A DNA stretch of 35,372 nt from a virus: positions 1 to 35,372 of IMG/VR virus record IMGVR_UViG_3300034012_001657, one strand, 5' to 3'. The position numbers and the translations under genes were made by a program. The notes beneath the pieces were generated by a model, which saw only the letters and a program-made list of their open reading frames with translations, was not told where the DNA came from and ran no database searches. This document shows positions 1-35,372 of this stretch, in pieces (positions within the stretch are counted from its first letter, which is position 1; every line of letters begins with the position of its first letter).

Positions 1-34
1 AAAAGTTTTTTTACAAAAATTCTCGCGTTTTGCC

Positions 35-63
35 TACATTTTTCGGAAACACGTTGCTATAAT
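35..63 (+). promoter_or_regulatory. Promoter of the left plus-strand operon
   Basis: A perfect TATAAT lies at 58-63 and is preceded by TGC, which makes an extended -10. A weak -35-like TACATT lies 17 bp upstream at 35-40. A box TTTTCGGAAA (40-49) lies between the two elements and resembles the box in the 32.57-kb promoter. Transcription should start near 70, and a small GCCG/CGGC hairpin follows at 73-85. The T-rich start of the window (6-12) looks like the U-tract of a terminator just outside it, the same terminator-then-promoter order seen at 32.5 kb. This is read directly from the bases and has no experimental support. Confidence 0.65.
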
Positions 64-98
64 AAAACGTGAGCCGCAACACGGCGACGAGGAAACAA

Positions 99-359
99 AT
101 GAAACAATACAAAATCATCATCCCAGGCAGCAACGGGAATACGATCAACTTCCACGAGACGGATAGCTTTCCGACGGCATTAGCTGGAGCTTGCGCTATG
201 GGTGGCTATGTCCAGCGAACATCTGACGGCAAGTTTTACCAAGACGAATCGGCTGCAACGGGTCAAGTTTGGTCTGACACTATTGAAGACGTGATCGAAT
301 ACGAAGGCGCGGTAGACGCCATGATCCAAGCCTACATTGATATGGGAGACTTAAAGTAA
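99..359 (+). CDS. Small phage protein, unknown function (86 aa)
   Basis: First gene of the left operon. I chose the ATG at 99 because it has a GAGGA ribosome-binding site at 89-93. The upstream in-frame GTG at 69 would sit at or before the predicted transcription start. The protein is small, acidic and soluble-looking, with N-terminal MKQYKIIIPG and no membrane segment or recognisable motif. Its TAA stop shares a base with the ATG of the next gene, so the two are probably translationally coupled. Function is unknown; the position suggests an early accessory gene. Confidence 0.7.
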   Translation: MKQYKIIIPGSNGNTINFHETDSFPTALAGACAMGGYVQRTSDGKFYQDESAATGQVWSDTIEDVIEYEGAVDAMIQAYIDMGDLK

Positions 360-640
360 TGCAAGACATTCAACAAGTGACGCCTGAGATTGACGTGGAT
401 GAATTGACCGGATTCCCAGAAGGATACAAAATGATCTTCCAAATCAAGAGCTACCAAGTGAGAGCCGAAGTGCTAGATGAGTACGGCGAAGAAACGCAAT
501 ACAGTATCATTATTCGCGGCATCTACAACGAGCAGACGTTCGGGCATAAGCCAAACGCCGACGACGCGCAAACATTTCTGTACAAGACGATCATAGACGG
601 TATTTTTATCACCGGAGACTTTGAGGTGGTGGCGAAATGA
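359..640 (+). CDS. Small phage protein, paralogue of the 33137 gene (93 aa)
   Basis: Unknown function. It overlaps the previous stop by one base (TAATG) and the next start by four (ATGA). The C-terminal two thirds resemble the protein at 33137-33448: MIFQI then a beta-rich stretch, then FLYKTIIDGIF here against FLYESLLKGIF there. The two operons at opposite ends of the window therefore carry diverged copies of one family. No catalytic motif is visible. It is likely a small single-domain alpha/beta protein used early in infection, which is inference from position only. Confidence 0.7.
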   Translation: MQDIQQVTPEIDVDELTGFPEGYKMIFQIKSYQVRAEVLDEYGEETQYSIIIRGIYNEQTFGHKPNADDAQTFLYKTIIDGIFITGDFEVVAK

Positions 641-870
641 TTGGCACATACACCGCAACAGAGCTAGAGGCAACCATCTGGGGCAAGTTAGACGAGTGTT
701 CAATCCGAGAGCCAAGCGATGCAGTGATTGGGTTTGTGATTCAGCAAATCGTCGCTCCAAGCCTTTTTGACCACGTTGAATGGGACATTAACACTCAAAA
801 CATTGTCCTTGAAGCACTTGCAAAGGCGCACCAGAAAGAATTAGAGCAAGCAGAGAGGTTAAGAGCATGA
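637..870 (+). CDS. Small phage protein, unknown function (77 aa)
   Basis: A 77-residue acidic protein starting in an ATGA overlap with the preceding gene and ending in an ATGA overlap with the next. The C-terminal part (about 55-77) is a charged helix rich in Ala, Glu and Gln. No family is recognised and there is no signal peptide or membrane segment. The unbroken coupling on both sides supports it as a real operon member. Confidence 0.65.
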   Translation: MIGTYTATELEATIWGKLDECSIREPSDAVIGFVIQQIVAPSLFDHVEWDINTQNIVLEALAKAHQKELEQAERLRA

Positions 871-1058
871 AGGAGACATTATCGCAAGCAAGCGCAAAAG
901 CCCAAAGAGAATCCGGGCTAGAGGACGCCATCACCGCCGCCAAGAAGTACAACGGACCACGAATGAGCGACCGCCCGGACATTTACGGCGGCAACGCCTA
1001 CGGTGAGCTACGACGACAAACGATCTGGCAACGGATCAGAGGAATTTTTAGACGATGA
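867..1058 (+). CDS. Small protein with SDRPDIYG motif (63 aa)
   Basis: Unknown function. The central block AAKKYNGPRMSDRPDIYG followed by NAYG is almost repeated in the protein at 34722-34970 (AARKYNGARCSDRPDIYG then NAYG), and the DNA is similar too. Here the protein ends after a basic tail (IWQRIRGIFRR). The 34722 copy instead continues into a membrane segment. It overlaps its neighbours by ATGA on both sides. I do not recognise the motif. Its conservation between paralogous cassettes suggests it is the functional core. Confidence 0.65.
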   Translation: MKETLSQASAKAQRESGLEDAITAAKKYNGPRMSDRPDIYGGNAYGELRRQTIWQRIRGIFRR

Positions 1059-1345
1059 AAAATGAATTTCAATTTGCAACTTGCGACCGGAATCTAGCCC
1101 TTAGATTCTTGCGTCAAAGCTACCCAACGCGGATTGTGGAGGATACCGAAGAATCCGCAAAGAAAGTACTTGACTTAGTTGAGAAGGACATCATGCGAGT
1201 GCAAGACCCGGATTGTCATAAGCCTTCACAGATGATCGCTGGGACTAACTGGGATGAATCTTTGCGCGAAAGTTGCCATGCAATATGCCAAGAATTCCAC
1301 CTTGCGACGCTCCAGACCCAAAAGCCAGCAGAGGTATCCGAATGA
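1055..1345 (+). CDS. Small phage protein, unknown function (96 aa)
   Basis: A soluble-looking 96-residue protein beginning MKNEFQFATCDRN, with ATGA overlaps at both ends. It has three cysteines and two histidines, but they are not spaced as an obvious zinc site. It lies between the SDRPDIYG gene and the membrane microprotein gene. In the right-hand paralogous cassette those two parts are fused and this gene is missing, so it behaves as a cassette-specific insertion or loss. No function is assigned. Confidence 0.6.
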   Translation: MKNEFQFATCDRNLALRFLRQSYPTRIVEDTEESAKKVLDLVEKDIMRVQDPDCHKPSQMIAGTNWDESLRESCHAICQEFHLATLQTQKPAEVSE

Positions 1346-1458
1346 CCTACCTAACACGCCCCGGCAAATTCGCGCTGGCACTCCTTTACATTGGACTAGT
1401 CGCCGCGTTCCTGACCATTTACGCCGACCACCCTTGGTTGGCAGGATTAACACGATGA
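1342..1458 (+). CDS. Single-pass membrane microprotein (38 aa)
   Basis: A 38-residue protein with one hydrophobic segment (about residues 9-26, FALALLYIGLVAAFLTIY) and the tail YADHPWLAGLTR. The same tail ends the 82-residue protein at 34722-34970. ATGA overlaps join it to both neighbours. The last codons also carry the AGGA ribosome-binding site for the next gene (AGGATTAACACGATG), which may explain part of the conservation. The role is unknown; it could be a small inner-membrane accessory protein. Confidence 0.6.
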   Translation: MTYLTRPGKFALALLYIGLVAAFLTIYADHPWLAGLTR

Positions 1459-1667
1459 AAGATCAATGGAAGCCAAAGGACGGCGATACCTACTTTTATT
1501 GGTATCAGCCTAAAGTGTGGCTATTCGTAAAGTTATTCAAGCCTGGAGTCGCAAGCAGGGTTTGGAAGGCCGATATTCACGACGTTTACAACTACTGGGA
1601 GAATAACGTCCACCCGACGAGAGAAGCCGCCGAATCCTGGGGCGCGGCGCAAGGAGAGAAGGAATGA
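1455..1667 (+). CDS. Small aromatic-rich protein (70 aa)
   Basis: Starts at ATG 1455, in an ATGA overlap with the microprotein and preceded by AGGA. The frame stays open upstream, but the 1455 start matches the gene order of the paralogous cassette, where a different gene begins at the same junction (34967). The 70-residue protein is rich in Trp and Tyr (for example DTYFYWYQPKVWLF) and Lys. It ends in an ATGA overlap with the next gene. No family recognised. Confidence 0.6.
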   Translation: MKDQWKPKDGDTYFYWYQPKVWLFVKLFKPGVASRVWKADIHDVYNYWENNVHPTREAAESWGAAQGEKE

Positions 1668-1894: not shown

Positions 1895-2236
1895 ATGCAA
1901 TTCAGCACCGCAGATTTACGAGGTTTCCACGCGCTTCCGCTAAAGAAGCGACGTGAATTCCTCGCGCTTTGCGCTATGCTGGAAAGTCACGATGAGCCAG
2001 AACAACGAACCGAATATCCGGCAGAAGGGCAAGGGATGGGAAGCCAGGATGCAAATCCAGGGGATAGCTTATCAAGCCTACGCAAGCACCAAGCAAGAGG
2101 CGGTCGCCCGGCTAAAGGAAAAGGTGTCACAGTCGCTCAGGCCACCGGGCTTGACGGACAACACCTTCAGGTCATTGATGGAGGGATTGTATCTCCCGAC
2201 GATCTCAAACACCAGCAAGAACTACCAGAGGGATGA
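1895..2236 (+). CDS. Possible small ORF overlapping the integrase start
   Basis: This ORF begins MQFSTADLRGFHALPLKKRR after a strong but distant GGAGG (1876-1880). Only the first 32 codons lie ahead of the integrase start, and the rest overlaps integrase in another frame. The N-terminal part looks like a natural charged helix. The C-terminal part is low in hydrophobic residues and could be a shadow of integrase. It may be a short leader peptide that couples integrase translation, or not a gene. No homologue recognised. Confidence 0.35.
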   Translation: MQFSTADLRGFHALPLKKRREFLALCAMLESHDEPEQRTEYPAEGQGMGSQDANPGDSLSSLRKHQARGGRPAKGKGVTVAQATGLDGQHLQVIDGGIVSPDDLKHQQELPEG

Positions 2237-3038
2237 AATGAGAGTCGCAAAGCTACACATGCCCTGGTTCAATACCGACGTTTCCGAGATAAGTAGGCAA
2301 TGGATTCAGAACCATATCAACCGATTGCCAAAGACCAGCCCGAAGGTCATCAGCGACGTTAAGCGCATCACTCGCTCCGTACTTAAATTGGCAGTCATAG
2401 ACGGCATCTTGCAGGTGAACCCGGCCGAGTACATCAAATTGCCCAAACGCTCGTACAAGCCAGGGAAATACCTCACCGCCGAGGAACTTCGAATCTTAAT
2501 TGCCTACGCCGTAGAAAAGCAATCCCCGGCACTACCAGCAATCGTACTCACCGGGCTTCTCGGCATCGGTTGGGAAGAAATACGGGACATCGAGCCGAAG
2601 CACTTCAACAAGAACCTGCTGACCATCGTGCGCGAAAAGACACGATACCGACGCCGCATCATCCCGGTTCCAAACAAAGTTCTGCAGCTCATCAAAGGGC
2701 AGACGTTCCCCTTGCTGAAATCCGATGTATCCACGATCTATCACCAGATTGAGAGACTAACCGACGATCTAGGCATGGAGAAACTAGGCAGGAACATTCT
2801 CAGGCATACGTGCGCTACTGGCCTCCAGGAGCTAAACACGAGCCTGGAAATACGGGCGATGATCTTAGGCCATACGCCGCCAGGCGGAGCCACACGCGAC
2901 TATTCCGATAGCCAGATGATCGAAGTAAAGTCCCAGCAACTCAGCCTATGGGTAGACACGGTTCTATCTGAGGGTTGGGAATACAGTTGGGAATGCCGGA
3001 TCAAAAATCAAGGAGAAATCATTGAACTTTTCCGCTAA
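1992..3038 (+). CDS. int: Tyrosine-recombinase integrase
   Basis: Site-specific recombinase that would join attP to a tRNA-Leu attB. I place the start at ATG 1992 (GGAAAG ribosome-binding site at 1981-1986), giving 348 aa. Residues about 5-45 look like an AP2-like arm-binding domain (KGKGWEARMQIQGIAYQAYA). Residues about 50-150 fit a SAM-like core-binding domain, and the C-terminal part is catalytic. Visible active-site elements are a beta-hairpin Lys near 216, LRHT Arg 271, LGH His 294 and the RDYS Tyr 304. Arg I is not where expected: the GxRxxE box reads GIGWEEI with Gly 193. The HxxR histidine is Asn 268. The gene lies directly beside attP, and its 3' end contains the left arm sites. Confidence 0.9.
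   Translation: MSQNNEPNIRQKGKGWEARMQIQGIAYQAYASTKQEAVARLKEKVSQSLRPPGLTDNTFRSLMEGLYLPTISNTSKNYQRDEMRVAKLHMPWFNTDVSEISRQWIQNHINRLPKTSPKVISDVKRITRSVLKLAVIDGILQVNPAEYIKLPKRSYKPGKYLTAEELRILIAYAVEKQSPALPAIVLTGLLGIGWEEIRDIEPKHFNKNLLTIVREKTRYRRRIIPVPNKVLQLIKGQTFPLLKSDVSTIYHQIERLTDDLGMEKLGRNILRHTCATGLQELNTSLEIRAMILGHTPPGGATRDYSDSQMIEVKSQQLSLWVDTVLSEGWEYSWECRIKNQGEIIELFR
2973..2994 (+). repeat. Left attP arm: two GTTGGGAAT repeats
   Basis: Two direct repeats, GGTTGGGAAT (2973-2982) and AGTTGGGAAT (2985-2994), 12 bp apart, inside the 3' end of the integrase gene. The same pair appears in inverted orientation at 3186-3207 on the other side of the attP core. Paired repeats at about one helical turn flanking a core are typical of arm-type integrase binding sites. 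Confidence 0.7.
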
Positions 3039-17801: not shown

Positions 17802-17812
17802 ATAAAACTAAA

Positions 17813-17860: not shown

Positions 17861-18310
17861 TTAAGCGACGTAGACAGAAGCCGCAACAGTTGCTGTTGGG
17901 TGAGTTGGAGCGCTAAGCCGACCATCTCCAGCAAATGCAGTCACAGCGTCAAGTACGACGTTGGCAACGGTTCGAGCCGAGACAAGCCGCACGTATCGGT
18001 ACGGCGACGCCGGACGCGCAACACCAATGAGCGCGATCTTGTTGGAGTTAGCCGAGCCAATAACGGTTGTGGTTGCACCCGTTAAAGCCGTCCAGCCAGT
18101 AGAGCCGTTTGCCGATCCTTCCACAGTGAAGATCACCTGACCGGAGCCAGTGATCGCGCCAATGTGAGCAGAAAAGACCACGGACGCGAAGTCCAGAAGG
18201 TCAACAGCCGCAGAGTTTACACTGGTAGTACCAGCCGCAAGAGTGAACGTGGTAGCCGCTGTACCATCAGGAGCAACACGTTCGATTCGATAGTTAGATG
18301 TTAGGTTCAT
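17861..18310 (-). CDS. Head-associated beta-sandwich protein (149 aa)
   Basis: A 149-residue Ala/Thr/Ser-rich protein with alternating beta strands (VVFSAHIGAITGSGQVIFTV, then YRYVRLVSARTV), starting after a good AAGGA site. It directly follows the major capsid gene, a common position for decoration proteins or head fibres; the fold impression fits a jelly-roll or Ig-like domain. I do not recognise a named family. It is followed by the hairpin at 17813-17836. Confidence 0.65.
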   Translation of the reverse strand: MNLTSNYRIERVAPDGTAATTFTLAAGTTSVNSAAVDLLDFASVVFSAHIGAITGSGQVIFTVEGSANGSTGWTALTGATTTVIGSANSNKIALIGVARPASPYRYVRLVSARTVANVVLDAVTAFAGDGRLSAPTHPTATVAASVYVA

Positions 18311-18319
18311 TGTTTTTCC

Positions 18320-19627: not shown

Positions 19628-19631
19628 AGCG

Positions 19632-20387: not shown

Positions 20388-20415
20388 GCCTAGACTAAAC
20401 ACCTAGGATAAAAAC

Positions 20416-21135: not shown

Positions 21136-22375
21136 CAGATCGCCCTTGCTTCTTTGCCAGACTCTCCGCAAGCCGAGCCTTTGCAAGAGTCAGACTGGCC
21201 GCAGAACTCAAATCCTGGTAAAACCCGTCCACACTGGCCGGCTCAAAGTCGAGCGCAGTTCTCGCTTCGTTCAGCATGACAATGCCACCCTGGTACAAAA
21301 GCGTGTACCTGGCTTCCAATTCTGCACGGTCAAGTTGTAACGCCTCAACACCACGCCTATCATAGCCCAAATAGAGCGCAGAATCGTCAGTAAAAATACG
21401 TAAAAACTGGTCAGTAAATTGACTTGCGATAATGTCAGTCACCGGAATGAGGAACTGGTTCCAAGCAAGCCGGATCATCTGGGTCAAATTGTTATATGTG
21501 CTTGTTTCCTGACCCGATGCAAGCTGCAACACAGCCGGAGGAACGCCAAACGCCGCACAAATCCGTTGCTCTGGGATGTTGCGAACCTTTTCGAGGATCA
21601 TGTCCTTTGGATTGGATCTGATCTCCTGAATCTTGAGCTTCGTGCTTGATACCAGCGTCTTGCCCCGGTTGCTTCCAGTCGTTGCGCTTTTCCAAGCCGC
21701 TGTGATTGCCTTGACCGCATCCTCGTCAAAGTTCGCGGACTCGTCGTCGCTGGAAATGATCGAACCAACGACGCCAAAGTTTGAAAGCACAGCGCGGAGA
21801 TACTCGCTTGCCTCCTGGTCGGTCAGCACCTCACGGAGACAGGCCTTCAGTGGTGAGTATCCGCGTCTGGAATCTTCAGGGTCGATACCATAACGCAGAA
21901 TGATCAAATCCTGCTCGTCAAAATACGTCGTCTCGCCGCTTGGTGCTACGTACTGAACTTTCCCGCCCTGGAACGTGCAGTAATAATGGTACAGGTACTG
22001 CAATCCGACGATGCGACCCCTGGTATCGCGCACAGGGTAGAAAAATGCCGTGCCTTCGGTGATGAGGGACATCCACATCCCGAACATTGCGTTGCGGCTG
22101 GAGATACCTTGCACCGGAGCGGTGATTGCCTCAAGCACCAACGGAAGTTTTACAATCTCGTCCTGGTCGGTCGCATCATCCTTCTTGAACACCGCAAGTG
22201 GAGCCGCCGAAGACTGAACCCATGCCCAGTTAATCAGCGACATCACCACGGAATTAAGGTGCAATGGCTCCTTCTGCGGGTCGAGCGAGCGCAAAACAGG
22301 AACCTGAAGCATACCGACGCTAGAGCGTGGCGCAGTAGACAGGAAGAACTGCTTAACCCGCTGGGATAGATTCAT
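21128..22375 (-). CDS. Portal protein, HK97 family
   Basis: 415 residues from ATG 22375 (the frame opens with GTG at 22390 within the junction element; AGGTG then lies at the right distance from the ATG). Typical portal features are VVMSLINWAW, YLYHYYCTFQ, LIILRYGIDPEDSRRGYSPL, IPEQRICAAFGVPPAVL and a long helical region to the end. It forms the 12-part ring through which DNA is packed and ejected. It directly follows the large terminase. Confidence 0.92.
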   Translation of the reverse strand: MNLSQRVKQFFLSTAPRSSVGMLQVPVLRSLDPQKEPLHLNSVVMSLINWAWVQSSAAPLAVFKKDDATDQDEIVKLPLVLEAITAPVQGISSRNAMFGMWMSLITEGTAFFYPVRDTRGRIVGLQYLYHYYCTFQGGKVQYVAPSGETTYFDEQDLIILRYGIDPEDSRRGYSPLKACLREVLTDQEASEYLRAVLSNFGVVGSIISSDDESANFDEDAVKAITAAWKSATTGSNRGKTLVSSTKLKIQEIRSNPKDMILEKVRNIPEQRICAAFGVPPAVLQLASGQETSTYNNLTQMIRLAWNQFLIPVTDIIASQFTDQFLRIFTDDSALYLGYDRRGVEALQLDRAELEARYTLLYQGGIVMLNEARTALDFEPASVDGFYQDLSSAASLTLAKARLAESLAKKQGRSDV

Positions 22376-22390
22376 ATCTAGGCTAAACAC

Positions 22391-23740
22391 CTACACCGCA
22401 ATAGATACGCGCCGTTTCGCCACCAAGTAGTTGAACCCACCAGCGAGCGTATCAACCTGGTCATCATGGCGCCCACGCGGAAACGTCCGCAACTCTTCAA
22501 CGAATTCGGTATTCCAATGAGCGCGAGCAATGACGATATTCTCACCCGCGATCTGAGACGCGACAGGCTCAGCGCGAACCTCTTTGCTTCCCGTTTCCCG
22601 TTCGTCATAGACCGGAAAGCCAGCGAGCATCCGCTTCATCGCGCTGATTTGAGCATCACCAGCAGAGCCGGGATCGTTTGGAAATACCTGCCTCACCACC
22701 CGTCCATCCCTGCTCACGGTTTGCAGGATCACCTGGTCGCGCTCAAAGACGTTCCAGCGACCACGCACTACATCGGTCACATAGAACCGACCATCGCGGC
22801 ACGGCCCTTCGATCAAGAGGCCGACGGTATAGTCCCCCTCCGGTGAGCTTGCCAAGTCCCACCGCCGAACCTTTGGCAGATTGATTGGCACTTCGTCATG
22901 GTTGCAGTACACCAGACTTCCAACCTTGAACAGCGTTCCTTCTCGTGGGCTTGGATTGCCTTGATACATCGCCTCAAACGAATATGGGTTCTGGAGCTTG
23001 CGTTCTTCGAGTTGCTCCAACGTCACACGGTCGGGACACAATGCCTCGCCAGGAGCGCGACCGAGAATGTCATCCTCAAGTGCGATAGCAGGAAGGTTTA
23101 GGAGCGTCCATCTGTGACTACCTGGAGCGTTCCGAATACGCCCGTGCAGTCCGTCCTGGTGCCACTCCGTGCCAATAAGTACCTGGTGCTTCATGTTCCG
23201 AGCGATCCAAACGTCCGTGAACCACTCCCACAGCGAGTCCCTGGCATTCAAACTCTCAGCTTGGTCGCGGTCTTTGATCGGGTCATCAAGTATCCCAATG
23301 TCTACCGGGAACGAGGTAAACGCACCACCAACACCAGTAGCGCGAACCTTGGAACCATCATCCAGTTCCCATTCCTGAACGCTCTTGAGGTCACCAGTAA
23401 ACTCAGCCCCAACGCCTTCCATAATCCGCCGGATAGAGCGTGAGATACGCAGGCTAGGAGTCTCAGAGTAGGACGCAATCCCCACGCGGGTTTCTTTGCG
23501 CTGGTTCAGCAGGAACGCTCCAAACCCGATAGATGCGACCTGGGTCTTGCCATGCTGCGGAGGGCAGGAAATCATCAGGTTCTCAATATCGCCATCAGCT
23601 AACGCCTGGAGATGCTCGATGATGAGCTTGGTATGCGGCCAGTCCCAACGCAGGTTAGGCATCGCGTAAGGAAGGAAGCGGCTTAGATCGCGCCGCCTAA
23701 TTTCCGCTTGAATTTCCGCTAGGGAGGGAACCCTTCGCAA
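22391..23740 (-). CDS. terL: Terminase large subunit
   Basis: 449 residues. Walker A CPPQHGKT (59-66) and Walker B DIGILDDP (about 147-154) form the packaging ATPase. The nuclease domain shows RRWDLASSPEGD (Asp 295), FPNDPG (Asp 356) and GRHDDQVD (426-430), the acidic metal-binding cluster. The start is TTG 23740, six bases after GGAGG, which lies inside the small-terminase gene; the two overlap by 44 bases. It packages DNA into the prohead together with the small subunit and portal. Confidence 0.93.
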   Translation of the reverse strand: MRRVPSLAEIQAEIRRRDLSRFLPYAMPNLRWDWPHTKLIIEHLQALADGDIENLMISCPPQHGKTQVASIGFGAFLLNQRKETRVGIASYSETPSLRISRSIRRIMEGVGAEFTGDLKSVQEWELDDGSKVRATGVGGAFTSFPVDIGILDDPIKDRDQAESLNARDSLWEWFTDVWIARNMKHQVLIGTEWHQDGLHGRIRNAPGSHRWTLLNLPAIALEDDILGRAPGEALCPDRVTLEQLEERKLQNPYSFEAMYQGNPSPREGTLFKVGSLVYCNHDEVPINLPKVRRWDLASSPEGDYTVGLLIEGPCRDGRFYVTDVVRGRWNVFERDQVILQTVSRDGRVVRQVFPNDPGSAGDAQISAMKRMLAGFPVYDERETGSKEVRAEPVASQIAGENIVIARAHWNTEFVEELRTFPRGRHDDQVDTLAGGFNYLVAKRRVSIAV

Positions 23741-26218: not shown

Positions 26219-26711
26219 TCGATTTCACCTCAAAGATTTCTTCAGCGGCCTTGATAAGATCGACGCCTTCCAGCGGTTTCTCAAAAAGCCCAAGGTCGTG
26301 CAGCGATTGCATAAACTCGTCCCGATGGTCGCGCATCCACTTAATGCCGGCATCGTGTGAGTTTTGGCAAGCCTGGTCAAAAGCGAGCAGTGGTTTCTTT
26401 AGTTCTAAAATCCGCTTATCAAATTTGCCTAGATGATTGATGAGCTGAACCATTTCCTCAATCTTCCAGGCGAGCGGAGCGTCTGAGTCACGCGGAGCAA
26501 AGTTCCATAGGCCTGGACTAGACGTAAGGTATGGCTTATCTTCTGGCCACAGCCGCACTTCCGACCATAGCGAGTCGAGTATCTCGGCCTTGTGAGTCTT
26601 GACATCCTCACCAAATCCCGGCGCGTGACCCGTGACCGTTCCGTTTGGCCCGATCTTCAAATACCCGCCGGATGCGTGAATTGCCTGGAAAAGATCAAAG
26701 CAATTTATCAC
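26193..26711 (-). CDS. TubC-N-like small protein next to primase (172 aa)
   Basis: 172 residues. The first 50 (FDLFQAIHASGGYLKIGPNG and then KTHKAEILDSL) resemble the TubC N-terminal docking fold, a short helix-hairpin-helix element found on many plasmid and phage primase-associated proteins. The rest is helical and charged, with several Trp. It overlaps the primase-helicase stop by four bases. It may be a loader or partner of the primase-helicase; this is inference from context. Confidence 0.55.
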   Translation of the reverse strand: MINCFDLFQAIHASGGYLKIGPNGTVTGHAPGFGEDVKTHKAEILDSLWSEVRLWPEDKPYLTSSPGLWNFAPRDSDAPLAWKIEEMVQLINHLGKFDKRILELKKPLLAFDQACQNSHDAGIKWMRDHRDEFMQSLHDLGLFEKPLEGVDLIKAAEEIFEVKSNEHQSINQ

Positions 26712-29647
26712 CAGACCTCCTCCACTATTTCGCTAGTGGCACCGTTAGTGGCACCACCGTTTTGAACCTGACTGGTGCCACTAACGCCACTAAGTGCAGT
26801 ATTTCCAGCCTCAGGCGTATGGAAATAATCTGAAGAATTTGGAGAATTTTGGTTTTCCTCTTGTATGTATGCGCCTGCGCGCGCGTTACTGGAAAAACTA
26901 TGATTAGTGTCCTTAGTGGCACCAACCCCTGTAAATTTGAACCTACGGGATCCTCCAGCCCTTGTAGACTTCTCTAGTTTAGTGGCACCATATATCTTCC
27001 CGACCTTCGAGGTAAGCATCATGGCAAGGCTTCGTTTGTTGGCCTCATCAGTCTTAACTAAGCCAAGTTCCGATAGGAAATCAGTCTCTTTAAGGTCATC
27101 GTAAATCACCGACGTAGACTGCGGAAAATCAAGATATCTTTCAAAACAGTGAGCAAACACCGCTTCCCAAATATCCCGTTCATCGTTAGCGCTTGATTGC
27201 AACTGCTCACGGTTGGATAGGAAGCCAGGAACGCCGTTCGCCGCCATGCAGCCACCGACAATCTTAGCCCACGATTCAAACGATCCCATCTTCTCCCGGC
27301 CTAGCGGACGCCCAGCACGAATCCAGACCTCAGCAATCTCCGTGAGCGCGGAAAGAATCCGCAAACGGTTCTCCGTGGCAAACTCCACAATGTCCGGAAT
27401 CTTAAAGCCGTCCCGTTCTTCGGGATGCTCCATTTCCGAGTCTAGGCGAATATACACGGTTCGCCGCGCGATGTCTTGGGACATCTTGCAGTTGTTGCTG
27501 GTCGCAATCCAGACCGCCGCGTTTGGCACGTCTACGTTGCTCGTCTGCCCAAGAATCCGGTCAGTCCAAGACGTAGTAGTAAGCACCGCCGCTAGTGACT
27601 CCGAATCGAGCTTATGCGCAATGTTGTCGATAAACACCACCGGGGAACCCTTAACGAGCGCACTGGTGATCTTCTTCGACCAAGAGTCCTCATCCTTCGG
27701 CACCGTCATAGCCCCACATTGGCCGAGCGTGGAAAGCAGAGCAACCTTCGCCAGGAGCGACTTACCCGTGCCTTGAGTTGGAGCTTCGATAAGGTGAAGC
27801 GGAGTAGGCCCATCAATGACCGGACGCAAGATCGGTAGCATCATAATTGCCAGCGTGTTTGCCCTAGAAGCATCGGAATCAAACGGAAAATCACAGAGCA
27901 GCTCATCAAAGATAAACTTGACCGGATCACCGCCATCCCACACCGGAACATCGCTTGGCAGGTTCACATAAACCTTCTGATCCCAGTCATAGCCAGCCGA
28001 ACGGCGCACCCCAGAACTCGTCACCACCGGACAGGAGGCAATAGATTTCAGCGGAGGCAAGCCAGGCCAGGGGAACAAAGACTCGAGATAATCCACGGCC
28101 TCTTTTGGCGGGAATACCTGCTTAATCTTTAGCCCTTCTTTGGTCGGAGTTGATTCGATAAAGTCCGATTTCCTAGAAAGTTCCGCACGAAGACGGTTCC
28201 CCATGACTGGCACAATCGAGATCATTCCGTTCTCATCAAAGCCAGGAGCAACGATCATCCCAGTTCTTGAGAAATAGGTTTCGGGATCGTTTTGCTCGAG
28301 CAAAAGCGCGAACAGGTCATCCCCCAAATCATCAAGCTGCCGATTCTTGCACTCAATAGAAGGCCGAGAAGTCCGCGTGAGCGTGACTCCGTGCCTGTCT
28401 CTATGCTCACCAGATCGAATTTTGGCGCGATCAATCTTGACTTGAATCCGCATAAGCTGAGGCTCAAGTCTTGCAATCGTTTGCCACAGGTACTTGCCAT
28501 TGTTGCCATCATCCACCTTTAGGAGCGAGACAAAATCAGCGGAAAGCCCTTGCCATTCTCCAAAGTGCTTAGCAAAAAGTTTGATCCGGTTGAGCACCAA
28601 AGCGTCAGAATTTCGTGAGCCAGCGAGAGCCAGCGAGATTCCGGGGTTGAATTCCGATGCCTTAGGTTCAACACCATGGATATAAGCAATGTTATTTTGC
28701 AAAATTCTCGCTGGCTCACCTGCCCTCGCTAGGTTCGAATTCGCTGGCTCATTTTGCATTTTTCGCCGGCTCTCGCTGGCACCATTTCCAAAACCACGTT
28801 TCACCAGCGATTTAGCCGCCGAGGCATAATCCCCACCAAATTCCAGCACCGCATACGCGCCAAACTTGGTGTATGCCTTGTTTGCTTCAAGTGCCGTGGA
28901 ACTGCTGAAGCAGATCAAGCGGTCGCCAATATCACGCGGCCCAGTGGTGGCAGATATGCCTTCTTTCTTGCCCGGACGTCTCCAGTAGTCAAGCGACCCA
29001 CTACGCCGAACGTGTGTCCACCCCGGCAGTGCTTCGCTCCAATCAGCGCGCCCTTCAAAGTCCTCACCAGGCATAAGCCCACCATCGCCAGGAGCGACGG
29101 AGCGCGGATCTGGTCGTTCGGGTTTAGCTTCGGGCATAAAGAACGGCCTAGCGTCTAGGAATTCACCTGAGCCAACATAGGTAAACGGCACAGTGCCGAC
29201 CGGGTGAGCTGGTAGGTAGTACATACGGCTTGCATCCTTACAGGCCGCATCGGACACCCCGCCACCAAAACGCTCATCTAACCCCTTCCAATATCCCGGC
29301 CAGTCGCATCCAGGCACAGGTTCAGCCAGCGGAAAGACCGCCCGCCACTTCGGATGCTCAGGCGTGGAAGAAAAGCTGGAGTGAATAACGTACTGGTATC
29401 CGCTAAATAGCTCGAGGAAATCAGCGGGATCATGCCCACCGTCGAAATCGAGTACCAGCGCATAGACCCAGTCAACGTTCTCCTTCTTCCTGGCACCACC
29501 ACCAAAGGTAACTGGCGACCAAAGCGGCCCTTCCTTTGTGCCGCGCTCAGCAAACTCGGTGAGGATTCCGGATAACTCAGCCCACGGCAAAACCGTTTCG
29601 TCCGGTGTCTTTGATCGGATTGATCCAAACAGGGAGAACTTAATCAT
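26708..29647 (-). CDS. Primase-helicase replication protein (AEP-like N-terminus, AAA+ C-terminus)
   Basis: 979 residues. The N-terminal part has LVLDFDGG (66-71) and HPKWRAVFPLAEPV, the acidic pair and Arg-containing block of phage primase-polymerase (AEP) proteins. The C-terminal half is a superfamily-3-like ATPase: Walker A EAPTQGTGKS near 626, Walker B SPVVFIDNI near 669, sensor-like VWIATSNN and an Arg-rich RRTVYIRLDS. It would prime and unwind phage DNA. The linker (about 289-343) is written in DNA with repeated GAGCCAGCGA units, a possible replication origin. The C-terminal 80 residues are Asn/Ser/Thr-rich. Confidence 0.85.
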   Translation of the reverse strand: MIKFSLFGSIRSKTPDETVLPWAELSGILTEFAERGTKEGPLWSPVTFGGGARKKENVDWVYALVLDFDGGHDPADFLELFSGYQYVIHSSFSSTPEHPKWRAVFPLAEPVPGCDWPGYWKGLDERFGGGVSDAACKDASRMYYLPAHPVGTVPFTYVGSGEFLDARPFFMPEAKPERPDPRSVAPGDGGLMPGEDFEGRADWSEALPGWTHVRRSGSLDYWRRPGKKEGISATTGPRDIGDRLICFSSSTALEANKAYTKFGAYAVLEFGGDYASAAKSLVKRGFGNGASESRRKMQNEPANSNLARAGEPARILQNNIAYIHGVEPKASEFNPGISLALAGSRNSDALVLNRIKLFAKHFGEWQGLSADFVSLLKVDDGNNGKYLWQTIARLEPQLMRIQVKIDRAKIRSGEHRDRHGVTLTRTSRPSIECKNRQLDDLGDDLFALLLEQNDPETYFSRTGMIVAPGFDENGMISIVPVMGNRLRAELSRKSDFIESTPTKEGLKIKQVFPPKEAVDYLESLFPWPGLPPLKSIASCPVVTSSGVRRSAGYDWDQKVYVNLPSDVPVWDGGDPVKFIFDELLCDFPFDSDASRANTLAIMMLPILRPVIDGPTPLHLIEAPTQGTGKSLLAKVALLSTLGQCGAMTVPKDEDSWSKKITSALVKGSPVVFIDNIAHKLDSESLAAVLTTTSWTDRILGQTSNVDVPNAAVWIATSNNCKMSQDIARRTVYIRLDSEMEHPEERDGFKIPDIVEFATENRLRILSALTEIAEVWIRAGRPLGREKMGSFESWAKIVGGCMAANGVPGFLSNREQLQSSANDERDIWEAVFAHCFERYLDFPQSTSVIYDDLKETDFLSELGLVKTDEANKRSLAMMLTSKVGKIYGATKLEKSTRAGGSRRFKFTGVGATKDTNHSFSSNARAGAYIQEENQNSPNSSDYFHTPEAGNTALSGVSGTSQVQNGGATNGATSEIVEEVW
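28617..28780. repeat. Iteron cluster, candidate replication origin inside the primase gene
   Basis: GAGCCAGCGA occurs in tandem on the plus strand at 28617-28626 and 28627-28636. It recurs on the minus strand at 28717-28708 and 28750-28741, with variants GAACCTAGCGA (28736-28726) and a GCCAGCGA/GAGCCGGCG pair (28780-28764). Minus-strand copies are joined to AT-rich TGCAAAAT segments, including the palindrome ATTTTGCAAAAT at 28694-28705. Iterons inside a replication gene with an AT-rich part between are like the lambda origin within gene O. Confidence 0.6.
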
Positions 29648-30666: not shown

Positions 30667-31064
30667 AACCCCGTCATGTCTTCAGCCGTAGGAGTGTAAG
30701 AAATGGCGCCACCAGCGGAAACGCTCTTCTTATAAGTGAGCAGGCAGACACAGCCCCCAGCCCTCACCCAGTGACCAAGCCCCACGTTTGCCAGCATCTT
30801 CTTCCTGCGAGCAGACTTGTTCGAGTCCGTGGTGAGCTGGACTAGGCACAGGTGGTCGGCGTAGATCGCCATGAAGTCACAGGCCAGAAAGTCCTTCTTC
30901 CTCACCGAGAATGCTTGCTCGTGTTCTAGGGTTTCCACCCACAGTGCGCCGTCCTCCAGGAGCCATCTTTTCGCCCGCTGGTTGTGGTTGACCGGCTTAG
31001 CGCGGACACGCTCCACTTTCTTCTTCTCACCACCAGCGACGTAGGCGAGTTTCTTAATGGTCAC
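30657..31064 (-). CDS. PD-(D/E)xK-fold-like phage protein (135 aa)
   Basis: 135 residues with WLLEDGALWVETLEHEQ, then RKKDFLACDFMAIY, then HLCLVQLTTDSNKSARRKKM. This order (Glu, Asp, then a strand with QxT followed by a basic helix) resembles a family seen in actinobacterial and other phages that has a PD-(D/E)xK nuclease-like core with Gln-x-Thr instead of Glu-x-Lys. The change could mean altered or lost cleavage. The N-terminus is strongly basic (KKKVERVRAK). A nuclease or DNA-binding role in early infection is likely; enzyme activity is not. Confidence 0.6.
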   Translation of the reverse strand: MTIKKLAYVAGGEKKKVERVRAKPVNHNQRAKRWLLEDGALWVETLEHEQAFSVRKKDFLACDFMAIYADHLCLVQLTTDSNKSARRKKMLANVGLGHWVRAGGCVCLLTYKKSVSAGGAISYTPTAEDMTGLWL

Positions 31065-31249
31065 TTATGCACCTCAGATCGCACCAACTCAAATCCTCGC
31101 GCCAGGTTGTAGACCTTGCTTTTGCTCGGAGAGCCTTCCATCTTCACGATATCCTTGGCTGGAAGCCCCTCAAGTAGCTTCTGAATGACAAAATCGTCCT
31201 GGGATTCATCCCTGGGACGGCCTAATTTTTTACTAGCTGTATTATTCAC
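31061..31249 (-). CDS. Small DNA-binding protein, first leftward gene (62 aa)
   Basis: 62 residues from GTG 31249. KKLGRPRDES at the start looks like an AT-hook-like GRPR element. Residues 25-55 (QKLLEGLPAKDIVKMEGSPS then KSKVYNLARGFE) look like a helix-turn-helix. It is divergent from the repressor and first in the leftward array, the place of Cro-like or early regulators. A Cro-type role is an inference. Confidence 0.6.
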   Translation of the reverse strand: MNNTASKKLGRPRDESQDDFVIQKLLEGLPAKDIVKMEGSPSKSKVYNLARGFELVRSEVHK

Positions 31250-31330
31250 CGTCAGTCAATTTACCCGATTTTCCACAAACTAGTAATTATAAGTAAGGTT
31301 TTTACAATTTATTTTTAGTACGATGCTAAT
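31250..31330. promoter_or_regulatory. Divergent lysogeny control region
   Basis: This 81-bp gap separates the leftward early array from the repressor. On the minus strand a perfect TATAAT lies at 31291-31286, with no good -35. Its expected start falls on TTTGTGGAAA (minus strand 31279-31270), the same 10 bases found in the 32.57-kb promoter. On the plus strand TTTACA (31301-31306) and GCTAAT (31325-31330) are 18 bp apart, but the repressor ATG begins at 31331. An alternative -10, TACGAT (31319-31324), would give a leaderless repressor message. The whole region is AT-rich. Confidence 0.6.
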
Positions 31331-32023
31331 ATGGACAAAAAAGAGATCGCTCTGGCAATCAAAAGGGCAATGGCTCAGGCAGTCCCTAAAAAGCTGACAG
31401 CCAATCATCTAGCCGACCTGGTTGGAGAGGATCGTGAGCGCATCAAAAATATCCTGGCTGGAAAAATACTTTTCACCCCTGCCATGATCGAGCAGTACCG
31501 GGTTGCGCTCAAGATGCCAACGGACTGGCCTAAAGAAATCTCAAATCCATCAAACCCCGTTACTTACCCACCAATAGAGATGCCCTTCGCTGGATCAATT
31601 CCCGCCGGGCAATGGAGCGACCCTGGCGAGTCTGAAGAATTCCGAGAAGTCGAGGCAAGACTATTCAAGACCAATAGGTTCTGCGCGGAGATAGTAGGGG
31701 AGTCTTGCTATCCCGCACTGCAGCCGGGCGATTTTACAATTTGGGAAGCCAACCGCAACCCGAAGCTCAACAAGATCATCATCGCTGAAAGGTATCCAGA
31801 CCATGCCGCAACTGTAAAGGTGCTAATATGGGACGCAGACCTAAAGCGTCCAGCTCTTTTTGCAATCAATCCCCTATTCCAAGAACCGTTAAGCGAACAC
31901 TGGGACGCCATCGCCTTTCTGGTACACGTCTCATATACAGACGATGATGGAGGCGAGATAACGTTCTACCGCGAGGACGGAATTAGGCCTGAGCAACTCA
32001 TAAAATATAGAGGAGAGAAATGA
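31331..32023 (+). CDS. CI-like repressor with S24 self-cleaving domain
   Basis: 230 residues. Residues 14-62 form a helix-turn-helix (LTANHLADLVGEDRERIKNI). Residues about 78-225 are a LexA/CI S24 peptidase: cleavage pair Ala 92-Gly 93 in IPAGQW, nucleophile Ser 125 in VGESCYPALQPGD (Cys replaces the usual Met after Ser), and general base Lys 163 in ATVKVL. The spacings of 33 and 38 residues match the family. It keeps the prophage silent and should be inactivated in the SOS response. No Shine-Dalgarno precedes the ATG, so the message may be leaderless, as in lambda cI. The next gene overlaps by four bases. Confidence 0.88.
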   Translation: MDKKEIALAIKRAMAQAVPKKLTANHLADLVGEDRERIKNILAGKILFTPAMIEQYRVALKMPTDWPKEISNPSNPVTYPPIEMPFAGSIPAGQWSDPGESEEFREVEARLFKTNRFCAEIVGESCYPALQPGDFTIWEANRNPKLNKIIIAERYPDHAATVKVLIWDADLKRPALFAINPLFQEPLSEHWDAIAFLVHVSYTDDDGGEITFYREDGIRPEQLIKYRGEK

Positions 32024-32487
32024 CCGACCAAGATTTCACCCAAGACGACATGATGCAACCGATCTACTGTATTGGATGCCGGAAGCACATCTCCAGAGCT
32101 TATAGCGACCTCACAAAAGGTCGGTGCATGGCTTGTGCCACTGCCTCCCAAACCGTAGCCGCACCGCCGATCCAGCAACCAAGCAAACCCTTTTCCTTTA
32201 AGGCACTTTTCTTCGGCTCTTTGGTGGACACATCCAGGCTAGTCGGGTCGTGCCAAAGGTGCGGATGTTGCAACTGTTTATACAAGAACAAATACAAGCC
32301 CGGCCCCTACGAAGTCTTAGGCGCGATTGCCGCCGGATGCTTTATCGTTGGCTTCTTCCTTTGCGGCTCGACATGGGTAATTACCGCCATCTGCCTCGTC
32401 GCCATGCTCTTCTTGCACCGGGAAGTCTTGTACACCGTCAAACGTTGCCCCGAGTGCGAAGCGGTTGAGAAGTTAGTCCCGATCTAA
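32020..32487 (+). CDS. Zinc-ribbon membrane protein co-expressed with repressor (155 aa)
   Basis: 155 residues. The N-terminal zinc ribbon (YCIGCRKH then RCMACAT) is followed by a Pro-rich linker, a cysteine cluster CQRCGCCNC near 83-92, two hydrophobic segments (about 102-116 and 118-132) and a final CPECEA. Two CxxC pairs and more cysteines can bind two zinc ions. It starts in an ATGA overlap with the repressor after GAGGAGA, and a terminator follows, so it is made in the lysogen. A superinfection-exclusion or host-conversion role is plausible but not shown. Confidence 0.65.
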   Translation: MTDQDFTQDDMMQPIYCIGCRKHISRAYSDLTKGRCMACATASQTVAAPPIQQPSKPFSFKALFFGSLVDTSRLVGSCQRCGCCNCLYKNKYKPGPYEVLGAIAAGCFIVGFFLCGSTWVITAICLVAMLFLHREVLYTVKRCPECEAVEKLVPI

Positions 32488-32513
32488 AGTCTTTTTCTTG
32501 GCTGAAAATAAAT

Positions 32514-32542
32514 CCTCGCTGAACCCAGCGGGGACTTTTTTT
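32514..32542 (+). terminator. Rho-independent terminator after the repressor unit
   Basis: CCTCGCTG (32514-32521) and CAGCGGGG (32526-32533) form an 8-bp stem with one T-G pair and a 4-base loop, followed by AC and seven T (32536-32542). It lies 27 bases after the stop of the zinc-ribbon gene. It would separate the lysogeny unit from the following promoter. Confidence 0.85.
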
Positions 32543-32562
32543 ACATTTTTTTTATTCTGATC

Positions 32563-32613
32563 TACATATTTGTGGAAATAGTGGTAATATATTTATGTAA
32601 CCGCGAAAGCGGT
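32563..32613 (+). promoter_or_regulatory. Promoter and leader hairpin of the 32.6-kb operon
   Basis: TACATA (32563-32568) and TAATAT (32585-32590) are 16 bp apart, and TGG precedes the -10 (extended type). TTTGTGGAAA (32569-32578) sits between them and repeats the box of the repressor control region, suggesting an operator. Near the predicted start (about 32597), ACCGC-GAAA-GCGGT (32600-32613) forms a stem with a stable GNRA loop, which may protect the message 5' end. A Shine-Dalgarno AAGGA follows before the first gene. Confidence 0.6.
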
Positions 32614-32630
32614 CGGAATAAGGATCACAC

Positions 32631-33137
32631 ATGGACACACCGTTCAACGCACACACAGCCGCAGAGTTAATTCTCAGCACCACACTCACCGCGCTCTTAA
32701 AGGGTCGCAACGCTAACATCAAGGCAGGGAATATCCTGCTCGCCAAAGCTCACGCGGACGAGAACACAATCGTCATCACCGAGCTAGACGGCTTTACCGA
32801 CCAACTCCGCGCAGAATTTCCCGCCCTTCTGCGCCGATATCCAGTAGACGGTTTCCGCACCGACGTGGGCGTCTGGGTCATCACCCCAGTTCCGCACCTC
32901 ACCCCAAACGAGTCGGTAGCGTTTCACCTCGAGCTATTCGAGGCATGGAGCTATGCCAACGGCTCTGAGATGCCGAGCAACTTCGCAATGGATCAGATGC
33001 GGCAGTTCGGAATGCTGGCTCACCACTGCCCAGAAGTTCTCCGCAAGTTTAACGCTCTCACCGAGGCCGATAAGTTTAACCAGCTAAACGGTCTAAAGCT
33101 CGCACTGCAAACACTATGCAACGGGAGTGCGGCCTAA
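32631..33137 (+). CDS. Phage protein, unknown function (168 aa)
   Basis: 168 residues, first gene of the second plus-strand operon, after AAGGATCACAC. It is mixed alpha/beta (AAELILSTTLTALLKGRNAN; WVITPVPHLTPNES) without membrane segments or a clear catalytic motif. It ends in a TAATG overlap. Later genes in the operon include an SSB-like protein, so a replication or early takeover role is possible. Not recognised. Confidence 0.65.
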   Translation: MDTPFNAHTAAELILSTTLTALLKGRNANIKAGNILLAKAHADENTIVITELDGFTDQLRAEFPALLRRYPVDGFRTDVGVWVITPVPHLTPNESVAFHLELFEAWSYANGSEMPSNFAMDQMRQFGMLAHHCPEVLRKFNALTEADKFNQLNGLKLALQTLCNGSAA

Positions 33138-33448
33138 TGCCTGACACAGAATTCGTCACGCCAGACGCCACGGTTCCAGATTCCGCGCTTGGCTTCGTAG
33201 GTGTAGACATTGTTTTCCAGATCGGAGATTTTAAGGTTTTCGTCAACTGGGAATTGGTGACGGCCTACGATCCGTTCGATTGGCAGGAGGAACCGCAATG
33301 GAAGTTCTCCCTAACGCACGGCAATTTCCACACTGAGTCCGATTGGAGCGACCAGGAGCCAACCGCAAAGCAAGCGCAGGAATTCCTATACGAGTCACTC
33401 CTAAAGGGAATCTTTGAAGAGAAAACACTCCAGGTGATCTGTCCATGA
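33137..33448 (+). CDS. Small phage protein, paralogue of the 359 gene (103 aa)
   Basis: 103 residues from ATG 33137 (TAATG overlap); an earlier in-frame ATG at 33116 lies in the previous gene. The segment IVFQIGDFKVFVNW, then a long beta stretch, then EFLYESLLKGIF matches the protein at 359-640. It is acidic with many Trp and Asp. Both copies lie in early plus-strand operons behind similar promoters. Function unknown. Confidence 0.65.
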   Translation: MPDTEFVTPDATVPDSALGFVGVDIVFQIGDFKVFVNWELVTAYDPFDWQEEPQWKFSLTHGNFHTESDWSDQEPTAKQAQEFLYESLLKGIFEEKTLQVICP

Positions 33449-33972
33449 CCACCGGACAAATGTACTCCGTACTGGACGCGGCGCAAACCGAAGCCGCGTT
33501 CGGTAAGGCGATTGATGATCTGCTTAGTCAGCAACACGACCTTAAGACAATGCCGAAGGACTTGCTCCAGAAAATCCGATCGCAGGTAGCCGACGAGTAC
33601 CGCCGGGCTTGCGACCAGGAGCGCAATAAGCAAATCTTCCGCTGGGTGAACAACCTCGCGAAAATCAGCGCACCTGAGTACCAGAAGTACAACCGCCTGC
33701 CGGACACGCCGCCCGAGAAGGACGACGAGCTTTATTCCAAGATGCTCGGCAACTGGGTGAGCGCACAGGTCTATCGTGCTTACCAGTACGAAGTCCGGAA
33801 GTACGACTGCCCAAAAGCGGCCGCCATTCTCGCCTTCATTGACACCAATTTCACCCGCAAAGTCTGCCCAGTAGACGGGCCGTACTTTAAGCGCGTGAAC
33901 CTCCTACCTGTAGAGCCAACCCTAGAAGACTTCTTCGGTGAGCTTGACTCCAAAGGTCTACGGACTATCTAA
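33445..33972 (+). CDS. Phage protein, unknown function (175 aa)
   Basis: 175 residues, starting in an ATGA overlap. Mainly helical and charged (AIDDLLSQQHDLKTMPKDLL, RSQVADEYRRACDQERNK), with a C-terminal part holding two cysteines (YDCPKA, KVCPVDG). It stands before the SSB-like gene. It may be a DNA-replication or recombination accessory, but there is no motif to say so. Confidence 0.6.
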   Translation: MTTGQMYSVLDAAQTEAAFGKAIDDLLSQQHDLKTMPKDLLQKIRSQVADEYRRACDQERNKQIFRWVNNLAKISAPEYQKYNRLPDTPPEKDDELYSKMLGNWVSAQVYRAYQYEVRKYDCPKAAAILAFIDTNFTRKVCPVDGPYFKRVNLLPVEPTLEDFFGELDSKGLRTI

Positions 33973-33983
33973 AACATAAACAC

Positions 33984-34607
33984 ATGGCATCAGGCACAGA
34001 ATCCCCAAAGGGACTAACATTCAACAACTACAGCATCAAAAACGGTGCATTCAACCAGTACGGAAAAGGAGTTCCAGACGGCACCAGTTTCACCTACATC
34101 AGTGGAGAACTTGACCGGATTCAACTCTTTGATGATCCAGGCAACTCGGCATACAATGTCAAGCCATACCTCGGCATCAGAGTTTCGCTCCGTGATGGAG
34201 AGACCATTGAGACATTCAAGATCAAACTCGCATCTCCTATCGGGGTCAGCTTCGCAAAGCGGCTGCACCATGTAGAGAAAGGGGATTTGGTAAAGCTCTC
34301 ACTGACTACCGGATCTAAGAACGCAAACGCGAGCTTTATCTCTCTTCGCGCCCTGGACGCGGACAGCGGAGAATGGGTATTGCCAGAACCTGCTGAATGG
34401 TCTAAGGGATCAACCGAAGGGATGAGCGAGGAAGACAAGATTGACTTCGACATCAAGAGGTTCAAGAACGCCAAGGAAGTCATTGTCAACCATTCCGCCT
34501 TTTATGTCCCCGAGGAAAAGACCGACGACGAACCGGAAGAACCAAAGGCAAAAGCCAAACCAGCGAAGAAGGCAGACCCAGACCACGATCCATTCGCCGA
34601 CGAATAA
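33984..34607 (+). CDS. SSB-like protein with acidic C-terminal tip
   Basis: 207 residues. The first 150 have alternating beta segments (GELDRIQLFDD, PYLGIRVSLRDGETIETFKI, LVKLSLTTGS), compatible with an OB fold. The end is Lys/Ala/Glu-rich and finishes DHDPFADE, like the acidic tip of single-strand DNA-binding proteins that recruits partners. The weak ribosome-binding site would fit moderate expression. Assignment as SSB is by tail and layout; other DNA-binding roles are possible. A strong terminator follows after 60 bases. Confidence 0.5.
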   Translation: MASGTESPKGLTFNNYSIKNGAFNQYGKGVPDGTSFTYISGELDRIQLFDDPGNSAYNVKPYLGIRVSLRDGETIETFKIKLASPIGVSFAKRLHHVEKGDLVKLSLTTGSKNANASFISLRALDADSGEWVLPEPAEWSKGSTEGMSEEDKIDFDIKRFKNAKEVIVNHSAFYVPEEKTDDEPEEPKAKAKPAKKADPDHDPFADE

Positions 34608-34667
34608 GACTTACCCAACCGACGGGGTTCTTATCAACGAGTAAGTTCTCCCTCTTCTCCTCCCATA

Positions 34668-34703
34668 GCCCGGTGTTTTACGCATTGGCACCGGGCATTT
34701 TTT
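34668..34703 (+). terminator. Rho-independent terminator after the SSB-like gene
   Basis: GCCCGGTG (34668-34675) and CACCGGGC (34689-34696) form a perfect 8-bp stem with a 13-base loop, followed by A and six T (34698-34703). It closes the 32.6-kb operon. The next gene starts 19 bases later with no clear promoter, so its expression may depend on read-through. Confidence 0.85.
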
Positions 34704-34721
34704 CCAAGAGAAACCAAAACA

Positions 34722-34970
34722 ATGAAACTTTCAGAAGCACACAAGCCAAAGGACGCCATCATCGCCGCTAGGAAGTACAACGGCGCAAGATGCTCTGACC
34801 GCCCGGACATTTACGGCAACGCCTACGGACAGCTAAAGCGCACCCGCCGAACTAAGCTCGGCACTTACACCCTTTTCGCAGGCATCGTCTTCCTGGCACT
34901 CGCCACGCTGACGGTTCTCGCCACGACATTGTACGCCGATCATCCTTGGTTGGCAGGATTAACACGATGA
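34722..34970 (+). CDS. Fused SDRPDIYG/membrane small protein (82 aa)
   Basis: 82 residues. The first half repeats the core of the 867 protein (AARKYNGARCSDRPDIYG, NAYG). The second half has a membrane segment (about 49-66, YTLFAGIVFLALATLTVL) and ends in YADHPWLAGLTR, the tail of the separate 1342 microprotein. It therefore combines two genes that are apart in the left operon. The orientation suggests the conserved half stays in the cytoplasm. Function unknown. Confidence 0.7.
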   Translation: MKLSEAHKPKDAIIAARKYNGARCSDRPDIYGNAYGQLKRTRRTKLGTYTLFAGIVFLALATLTVLATTLYADHPWLAGLTR

Positions 34971-35188
34971 AAGAATTAGAGTGGGAGCATTACCCAAAAT
35001 GCGAATGGAGCATTGCGTTCATAGGATATTGGGAGGCGTTCAAGATATTTGACGATGCACCTTCAACCCTACGAATTCAGAACGACGGGCAAAGAGTCGA
35101 GCTAGACTTCCGCACCCCCGAACGAGCCAAACGCGCCGCGCAGTCAATCGCTGACTTGTTGGCAGAAGCCGGGAGGGAGGTGGCGTGA
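34967..35188 (+). CDS. Small phage protein, unknown function (73 aa)
   Basis: 73 residues from ATG 34967, in an ATGA overlap and preceded by AGGA. It occupies the slot of the 1455 gene in the left cassette but has a different sequence (MKELEWEHYPKCEWSIAF). The C-terminal helix PERAKRAAQSIADLLAEAG is regular. A GTGA overlap joins it to the next gene. Not recognised. Confidence 0.6.
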   Translation: MKELEWEHYPKCEWSIAFIGYWEAFKIFDDAPSTLRIQNDGQRVELDFRTPERAKRAAQSIADLLAEAGREVA

Positions 35189-35372
35189 AGATCACTGTTG
35201 ACGTTCGGGATAAGGTATCGGCAGATTACGCACTCTCTCGTATTGGGATGTGGTACGGAAAGAACCGAATCAATCCAAAAGAAAACCCTATGTCTGGCGT
35301 TGCGATTTACGCTGATGGGATGGTCATATTCAAGCGACCTAACCGAAAGAGTGATTGCTTTGTAGCCTACTA
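35185..35372 (+). CDS. Partial second copy of the 1664 gene (cut by window end)
   Basis: 188 bases of a gene starting GTG, identical to 1664-1851 except for the start codon, one silent change and one Thr-to-Asn change. The rest is outside the window. It is the strongest DNA-level link between the two cassettes. The change of neighbour gene argues against simple end overlap of a circular assembly. Confidence 0.7.
   Translation, partial: MKITVDVRDKVSADYALSRIGMWYGKNRINPKENPMSGVAIYADGMVIFKRPNRKSDCFVAY

Follow-up and report, generated by a model that had tools for sequence, protein, structure and literature searches.

The window, by which we mean the whole 35,372-nt stretch analyzed (IMG/VR record IMGVR_UViG_3300034012_001657), derives from a temperate tailed phage, as shown by its integrase and its head, portal and terminase genes. 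The tyrosine integrase is encoded at 1953..3038 on the plus strand (phrog_1, 1e-32; the Pfam family PF00589 scored below its cut-off), the major head protein, portal and terminase lie on the minus strand and a primase/helicase-like gene occupies 26708-29647. No tRNA genes were found in the window. An imperfect inverted repeat of 26 nt, with one arm at the end of the integrase gene and the other shortly after it (2969-2994 / 3186-3211), may represent attachment-site arms or terminators. The terminase showed 35.7% identity to the top-listed named phage and 28-32% to relatives in genome contigs of four gut MAGs; named phages gave no DNA match to positions 31000-33200, and no literature on this phage group was recognised, judging by titles and abstract openings.

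The immunity module near the right end of the window was compared among six contigs: the window itself (immunity type I), L003, L004 and L005 (type II), which were retrieved by a scan with the repressor, and L006 and L007 (type III), which were retrieved by a scan with the 155-aa protein and share about 92-99% identity with the window in blastn blocks longer than 1 kb. Only three immunity types are represented across these six contigs, and L003 and L004 are near copies. Extra cuts of the sister contigs L003-L007 (L008-L010, L013-L015, L027, L028 and L033-L036) were left out, and neither L001 and L002, which are the window itself, nor L016-L026, which are longer pieces of G001 and G004-G007, were counted. 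The leftward gene P0004 and the primase P0005 used as queries returned the L006 and L007 contigs alone, pattern searches for the leader hairpin and the terminator gave no contigs beyond those already found, and the exact OR sequence of the window had no match in the viral contigs. The features of the window on which the analysis is based are as follows.

1..1664 (no strand): contig tail left out of the implied circle; another version of the 32569-35372 operon
40..49 (+): third box, TTTTCGGAAA, in the tail, upstream of a PR-like promoter of the type found in the relatives G006 and G007
31061..31249 (-): first leftward gene (62 aa), facing away from the repressor gene across OL, at the place of cro
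31258..31263 (-): candidate PL -10, TAAATT; L003 has TATAAT and L006 has TATAGT at the corresponding position
31270..31279 (-): OL box, TTTGTGGAAA, putative operator at the leftward early promoter PL; core of TACnnnTTTGTGGAAAnnnnGGTAA, which is common to OR
31319..31324 (+): candidate -10 of the repressor gene, TACGAT, 6 nt ahead of the ATG; TATGAT in L003
31331..32023 (+): predicted prophage repressor, 230 aa, N-terminal HTH and C-terminal Peptidase_S24
32020..32487 (+): 155-aa protein encoded between the repressor and OR; contains several Cys pairs and a hydrophobic stretch
32513..32534 (+): hairpin with a T run before PR, resembling an intrinsic terminator and predicted to end the repressor transcript; kept in relatives
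32543..32619 (+): PR/OR patch of 77 bp that differs from L006 between near-identical flanks; boundaries as in the printed alignment
32569..32578 (+): OR box, TTTGTGGAAA, putative operator at the rightward early promoter PR
32585..32590 (+): predicted PR -10, TAATAT, with TGG ahead (extended -10 like), read by consensus; the box lies upstream
32600..32613 (+): ACCGC-GAAA-GCGGT hairpin, close to the 5' end of the PR transcript as predicted; L003, L006 and the tail have equivalents
35186..35372 (no strand): end overlap repeating 1665-1851 (185/187); the circle so implied measures 33,521 bp

The module is thus ordered box, repressor, 155-aa gene, terminator-like hairpin, box. The protein encoded at 31331..32023 has the HTH plus S24 architecture of a CI/LexA-type repressor, with the S24 match just over its cut-off (24.3 bits, cut-off 23.3) and the HTH_3 match under it (15.2 bits, cut-off 23). 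It also matched the phrog_4 transcriptional repressor family (5.9e-8), and the N-terminal part of a three-sequence profile gave a weak match to the N-domain of the 434 repressor (E=0.032). Among named phages there was one protein match, with 24.8% identity over 60%. By motif and spacing, Ala87-Gly88 is a candidate autocleavage site and Ser125/Lys163 a candidate catalytic dyad; the structure model (mean pLDDT 40.2) was too poor for use. The position of TACGAT 6 nt before the start codon suggests that the repressor message is leaderless. The 155-aa protein gave no family match up to E=0.1 and its place makes it a candidate for superinfection exclusion or lysogenic conversion.

The coordinates, strands and sequences that the first-pass annotation gave for the three boxes were all correct. 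The common pattern TTTNNGGAAA matches only these three boxes in the 35,372-nt record, a count that is not above chance (3 against 1.58 expected; 21 of 100 shuffles reach 3). Each of PL and PR has one exact site, so that triple operators of the lambda kind are absent; the four other near-sites carry 3 mismatches in 10 each. A stoperator reading was rejected, there being two sites per contig. The type I box shows no clear palindrome: its best dyad (13/24) was reached by 331 of 2000 shuffles, and in the same test the preferred axis of the type II region differs from the centre of its 23-bp site. The lack of a significant dyad in the type I site is a weak point of the operator interpretation.

A strict sigma-70 scan of 31000-32700 returned 0 promoters against 1.8 expected, and the promoters were assigned by consensus and by register with the relatives. 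At PR the box lies upstream of the -10. At PL the register with L003 and L006 points to TAAATT (31263-31258, minus strand) as a possible -10, which would place the box upstream of the hexamer as at PR; with the alternative hexamer TATAAT at 31291-31286 (minus strand), the box would coincide with the start site, as in the first-pass annotation. Counterparts of the leader hairpin occur at 11264-11297 in L003, 5577-5614 in L006 and 73-85 in the tail. Of 200 shuffles, 14 folded as well for the PR hairpin of the window, 0 for L003, 41 for L006 and 26 for the tail, and only the L003 hairpin is clearly more stable than shuffles. These hairpins possibly have a role in mRNA stability or antitermination.

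The OL and OR regions of the window are only modestly similar to each other. Their best local score, with both strands and the whole OR region, was reached by 44 of 300 shuffles; in the promoter part and on the expected strand, 22 or 33 of 1000 shuffles reached it under one or the other of two mismatch scores. With the milder of these, two cross-type pairs do equally well (I-III, 18 of 1000; III-II, 16 of 1000), which is attributed to shared -10 surroundings. Within the other types the similarity is strong (28 nt in type II and a score of 21 in type III, 0 of 300 shuffles each), and for the six cross-type OL/OR pairs between 30 and 256 of 300 shuffles did as well. The modest results mean that similarity alone would not prove the window pair.

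The evidence for an operator function comes from the sister contigs, where repressor and sites change together. In the type II repressor the C-terminal part (residue 93 on) is identical to that of the window at 136 of 138 positions, whereas in the N-terminal part only 37 of 99 columns are identical (aligned for L003 and L005; L004 reads as L003). In L003-L005 an identical 23-bp site, TACCAAATTTACGGAAAATAGTA, is found at both the OL and the OR positions, and its 17-bp core has no other copy in these three contigs at up to 3 mismatches. TTTNNGGAAA is the core of this type II site as well, in the opposite orientation at the promoter positions. L006 and L007 encode a different repressor of 114 aa (HTH_31/HTH_3, without an S24 match; 4660-5004 in L006), whose similarity to the type I repressor (28% over 85 columns, single-comparison E=0.014) is that expected of two HTH proteins. 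In these contigs TTTGCACAATTTTGTGCAAA, an 18/20 palindrome, occupies the OL and OR positions and was not found elsewhere in either contig at up to 3 mismatches.

The left site, the repressor and the right site were therefore matched in 6 of 6 contigs, the site differing with the type of repressor. The entry of the window itself in this count rests on a 10-mer in register: the OL box centre lies 56.0 nt from the repressor ATG in the window and 56.5 nt in L003, and the OR site lies 86.0 nt from the stop codon of the 155-aa gene in the window and 86.5 nt in type II, the same two distances being 42 and 81 nt for the type III sites. A 10-mer common to both regions within 2 bp of the L003 register arose in 1 of 20,000 joint shuffles, against 292 of 20,000 shuffled region pairs when any place was allowed. 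The window and its relatives thus differ in repressor and predicted operators together, between common flanks, as do genomes carrying heteroimmune cassettes. Since both positions change with the repressor in these relatives, the boxes at 31270 and 32569 are very probably sites at which the phage's own repressor shuts both early promoters, and to that extent the earlier proposal of a repressor operator stands; it does not extend to the box at 40. Failure of the boxes to be conserved, which had been offered as a ground for refutation, would mislead, because their sequence varies between relatives and is replaced in step with the repressor.

The same comparison bears on the idea that the box is a promoter element recognised by a phage or host sigma factor. 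In favour of this, a -10-like hexamer closely follows the box at PR and may do so at PL. The corresponding promoter positions, however, hold TTTGCACAAAATTGTGCAAA in type III and the core in reversed orientation in type II. This reading was rejected, since the site is replaced between types while the terminator and the leader hairpin are kept, and we consider it very improbable.

The boxes could also be bound chiefly by the 62-aa product of the first leftward gene, as a Cro-like protein, with the repressor acting elsewhere. This gene lies at the place of cro and is replaced in relatives along with the repressor and both sites, so that its product could bind or share them and is a possible second regulator. 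Evidence that it binds DNA is nevertheless weak: it had no Pfam match, its weak match was to the terminase small subunit family phrog_1482 (E=0.0098), it is 31% identical to its L003 counterpart (single-comparison E=0.008), and the HTH matches of its counterparts are below cut-off. Moreover, in type III the repressor clearly belongs to HTH_3 and lies beside a long palindrome, and long palindromes are sites of the kind bound by HTH_3-type dimers. The 62-aa protein therefore has only a slim chance of being the main binder. Sharing of the sites by both proteins, as occurs with lambda CI and Cro, would leave repressor control of the two promoters intact.

On the operator interpretation, the repressor would bind one site per early promoter through its N-terminal HTH, probably as a dimer. 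Bound just upstream of the -10, it would occlude RNA polymerase at PL and PR, giving a silent prophage, and DNA damage would lead to RecA-stimulated self-cleavage through the S24 domain and release both promoters.

The third box requires a different explanation. The first-pass annotation had assigned the three boxes to three promoter regions of one genome, all blocked by one repressor, and had advised a search for the box in a missing part of the genome. The end overlap, however, leaves 1-1664, and position 40 with it, outside the 33,521-bp circle, and if it closes that circle no part is missing. G001 has an end overlap of the same kind (184/186) and a single version of the operon; with their overlapping ends (187 and 186 nt, two mismatches each), both the window and G001 may be near-complete circles. 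In G005 the equivalents of 34970 and 1888 are linked by about 200 nt without a match to either end of the window, so that the tail is bypassed.

The tail is instead 100% identical to G006 over 1-1437. The other matches of G006 are 99.2% over 922-1937, at a second place, and 77.1% over 4289-5071, the remainder being pieces of about 400 nt or shorter at 81-100%. In G006 and G007 the PR-like promoter with the box found at 40 stands back to back with the leftward one with no repressor between them, and neither contig had a match to the repressor, HTH_3 or integrase family. Because the integrase family is below cut-off even in the window, direct joins are a stronger sign that the integrase is absent: G006 joins the equivalents of window positions 1957 and 3086 at 54132 and 54130, skipping the integrase gene, and G007 likewise joins those of 1919 and 3213 at 38891 and 38885. 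G006 and G007 thus look like non-temperate relatives, and their records may be incomplete.

In G006 (80.7 kb) itself the early region is present in two versions, at 16043-17076 and 54133-55413; the part from 15,901 to 22,500 (reverse strand), which includes the version at 16043-17076, has a different arrangement. The first 341 nt of the record recur at 79660-80000 (98.2%). Either the contig unrolls two strains in succession or the genome is an unusual double one.

That all three boxes nonetheless serve one repressor, in one genome with two versions of the PR operon, gains something from the PR-like promoter and similar leader hairpin at the third box (box centre to hairpin 29 nt, against 27 nt at OR) and from the presence of TTTNNGGAAA in the type II core. 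Against it stand the overlap, the single operon version of G001, the path of G005 and the identity of the tail to G006, in which no repressor or integrase was detected; in addition, the box at 40 lacks the flanks TACnnn...GGTAA of type I. We regard it as unlikely. The third box probably does not belong to this genome as a further operator; the best explanation is that it marks the PR region of another phage type, a relative that is apparently non-temperate, carried here on a tail derived from a strain mixture.

Compared with L006, the replaced segment has its left end at about 31,050-31,064 and its right end at about 32,011, beyond which lies the separate patch at 32543..32619; L007 has the same OR as L006, with a more diverged right flank. 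The 155-aa gene between them follows no immunity type: L005 (II) and L007 (III) are 95.7% identical in it, against 76.0% for L005 and L003, both type II, and over its columns 200-320 the window (I) and L006 (III) are 99.2% identical and L005 (II) and L007 (III) 97.5%. Alleles of this gene appear from these identities to reassort across immunity types, so that repressor and OR remain paired even though the gene separating them recombines, as would be expected if a working repressor-operator pair is under selection. Sister phages would thus swap the repressor, or at least its DNA-binding domain, together with the OL and OR that fit it, and their related backbones would carry three or more immunity specificities.

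Taken as a whole, the interpretation that the two boxes are OL and OR of a heteroimmune cassette, whose repressor and sites are exchanged as a matched set, and that the third box is the PR of another relative carried on the tail, has in our estimate a probability of roughly 0.8.

The order of genes is the mirror image of that in lambda when repressor, rexAB, cro, replication genes and integrase are compared. OL and OR flank the repressor module between divergent early promoters, whose activity is predicted, and the repressor and the following gene are read towards the integrase-side operator. The 155-aa gene is at the place of rexAB and the 62-aa gene at that of cro, with the primase/helicase-like gene on the cro side and the integrase on the other. 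The differences are that lambda has three sites per promoter and the window one, and that the gene at the place of cro is not recognisably Cro. The HTH plus S24 repressor is also shared with lambdoid phages. CI proteins of VT2-Sakai and lambda have conserved C-domains and diverged N-domains (PMC10742460); the window and type II repressors likewise keep the C-part and diverge in the N-part.

The repressors of lambda and P22 are cut at Ala-Gly by a Lys/Ser dyad, and the Gifsy prophages of Salmonella are close relatives with different immunity regions and operators that are heteroimmune, their repressors being removed uncleaved by antirepressors on induction (PMC3121763). Types I and II here differ from Gifsy in carrying S24, and type III is without it. 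The same backbone has exchanged a presumably SOS-cleavable S24 repressor for the type III protein, the induction of which should differ. Cluster A mycobacteriophages (L5, Bxb1, D29) are likewise heteroimmune relatives with distinct binding-site consensus sequences, and D29 is an obligately lytic relative that has lost the 5' end of its repressor gene (PMC6550527). D29 is comparable to G006 and G007, but Cluster A genomes carry 20-30 asymmetric sites each, against two per contig here.

A broader population model would combine several specificities on one backbone, OL with repressor and the OR patch exchanged as separate, matched pieces while the gene between them reassorts and even the S24 repressor can be swapped for one lacking the domain, with a TTTNNGGAAA PR site in the non-temperate relatives G006 and G007 that would leave them open to silencing by a resident prophage of type I or II; as a whole this is doubtful. 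The contig tail is a warning that such a tail can add a false third site. For this uncultured phage group, the comparison defines a predicted immunity switch with three repressor-operator pairs, and the matched change of repressor and site across a recombining gene indicates that operators may be read from metagenomic relatives before experiment.
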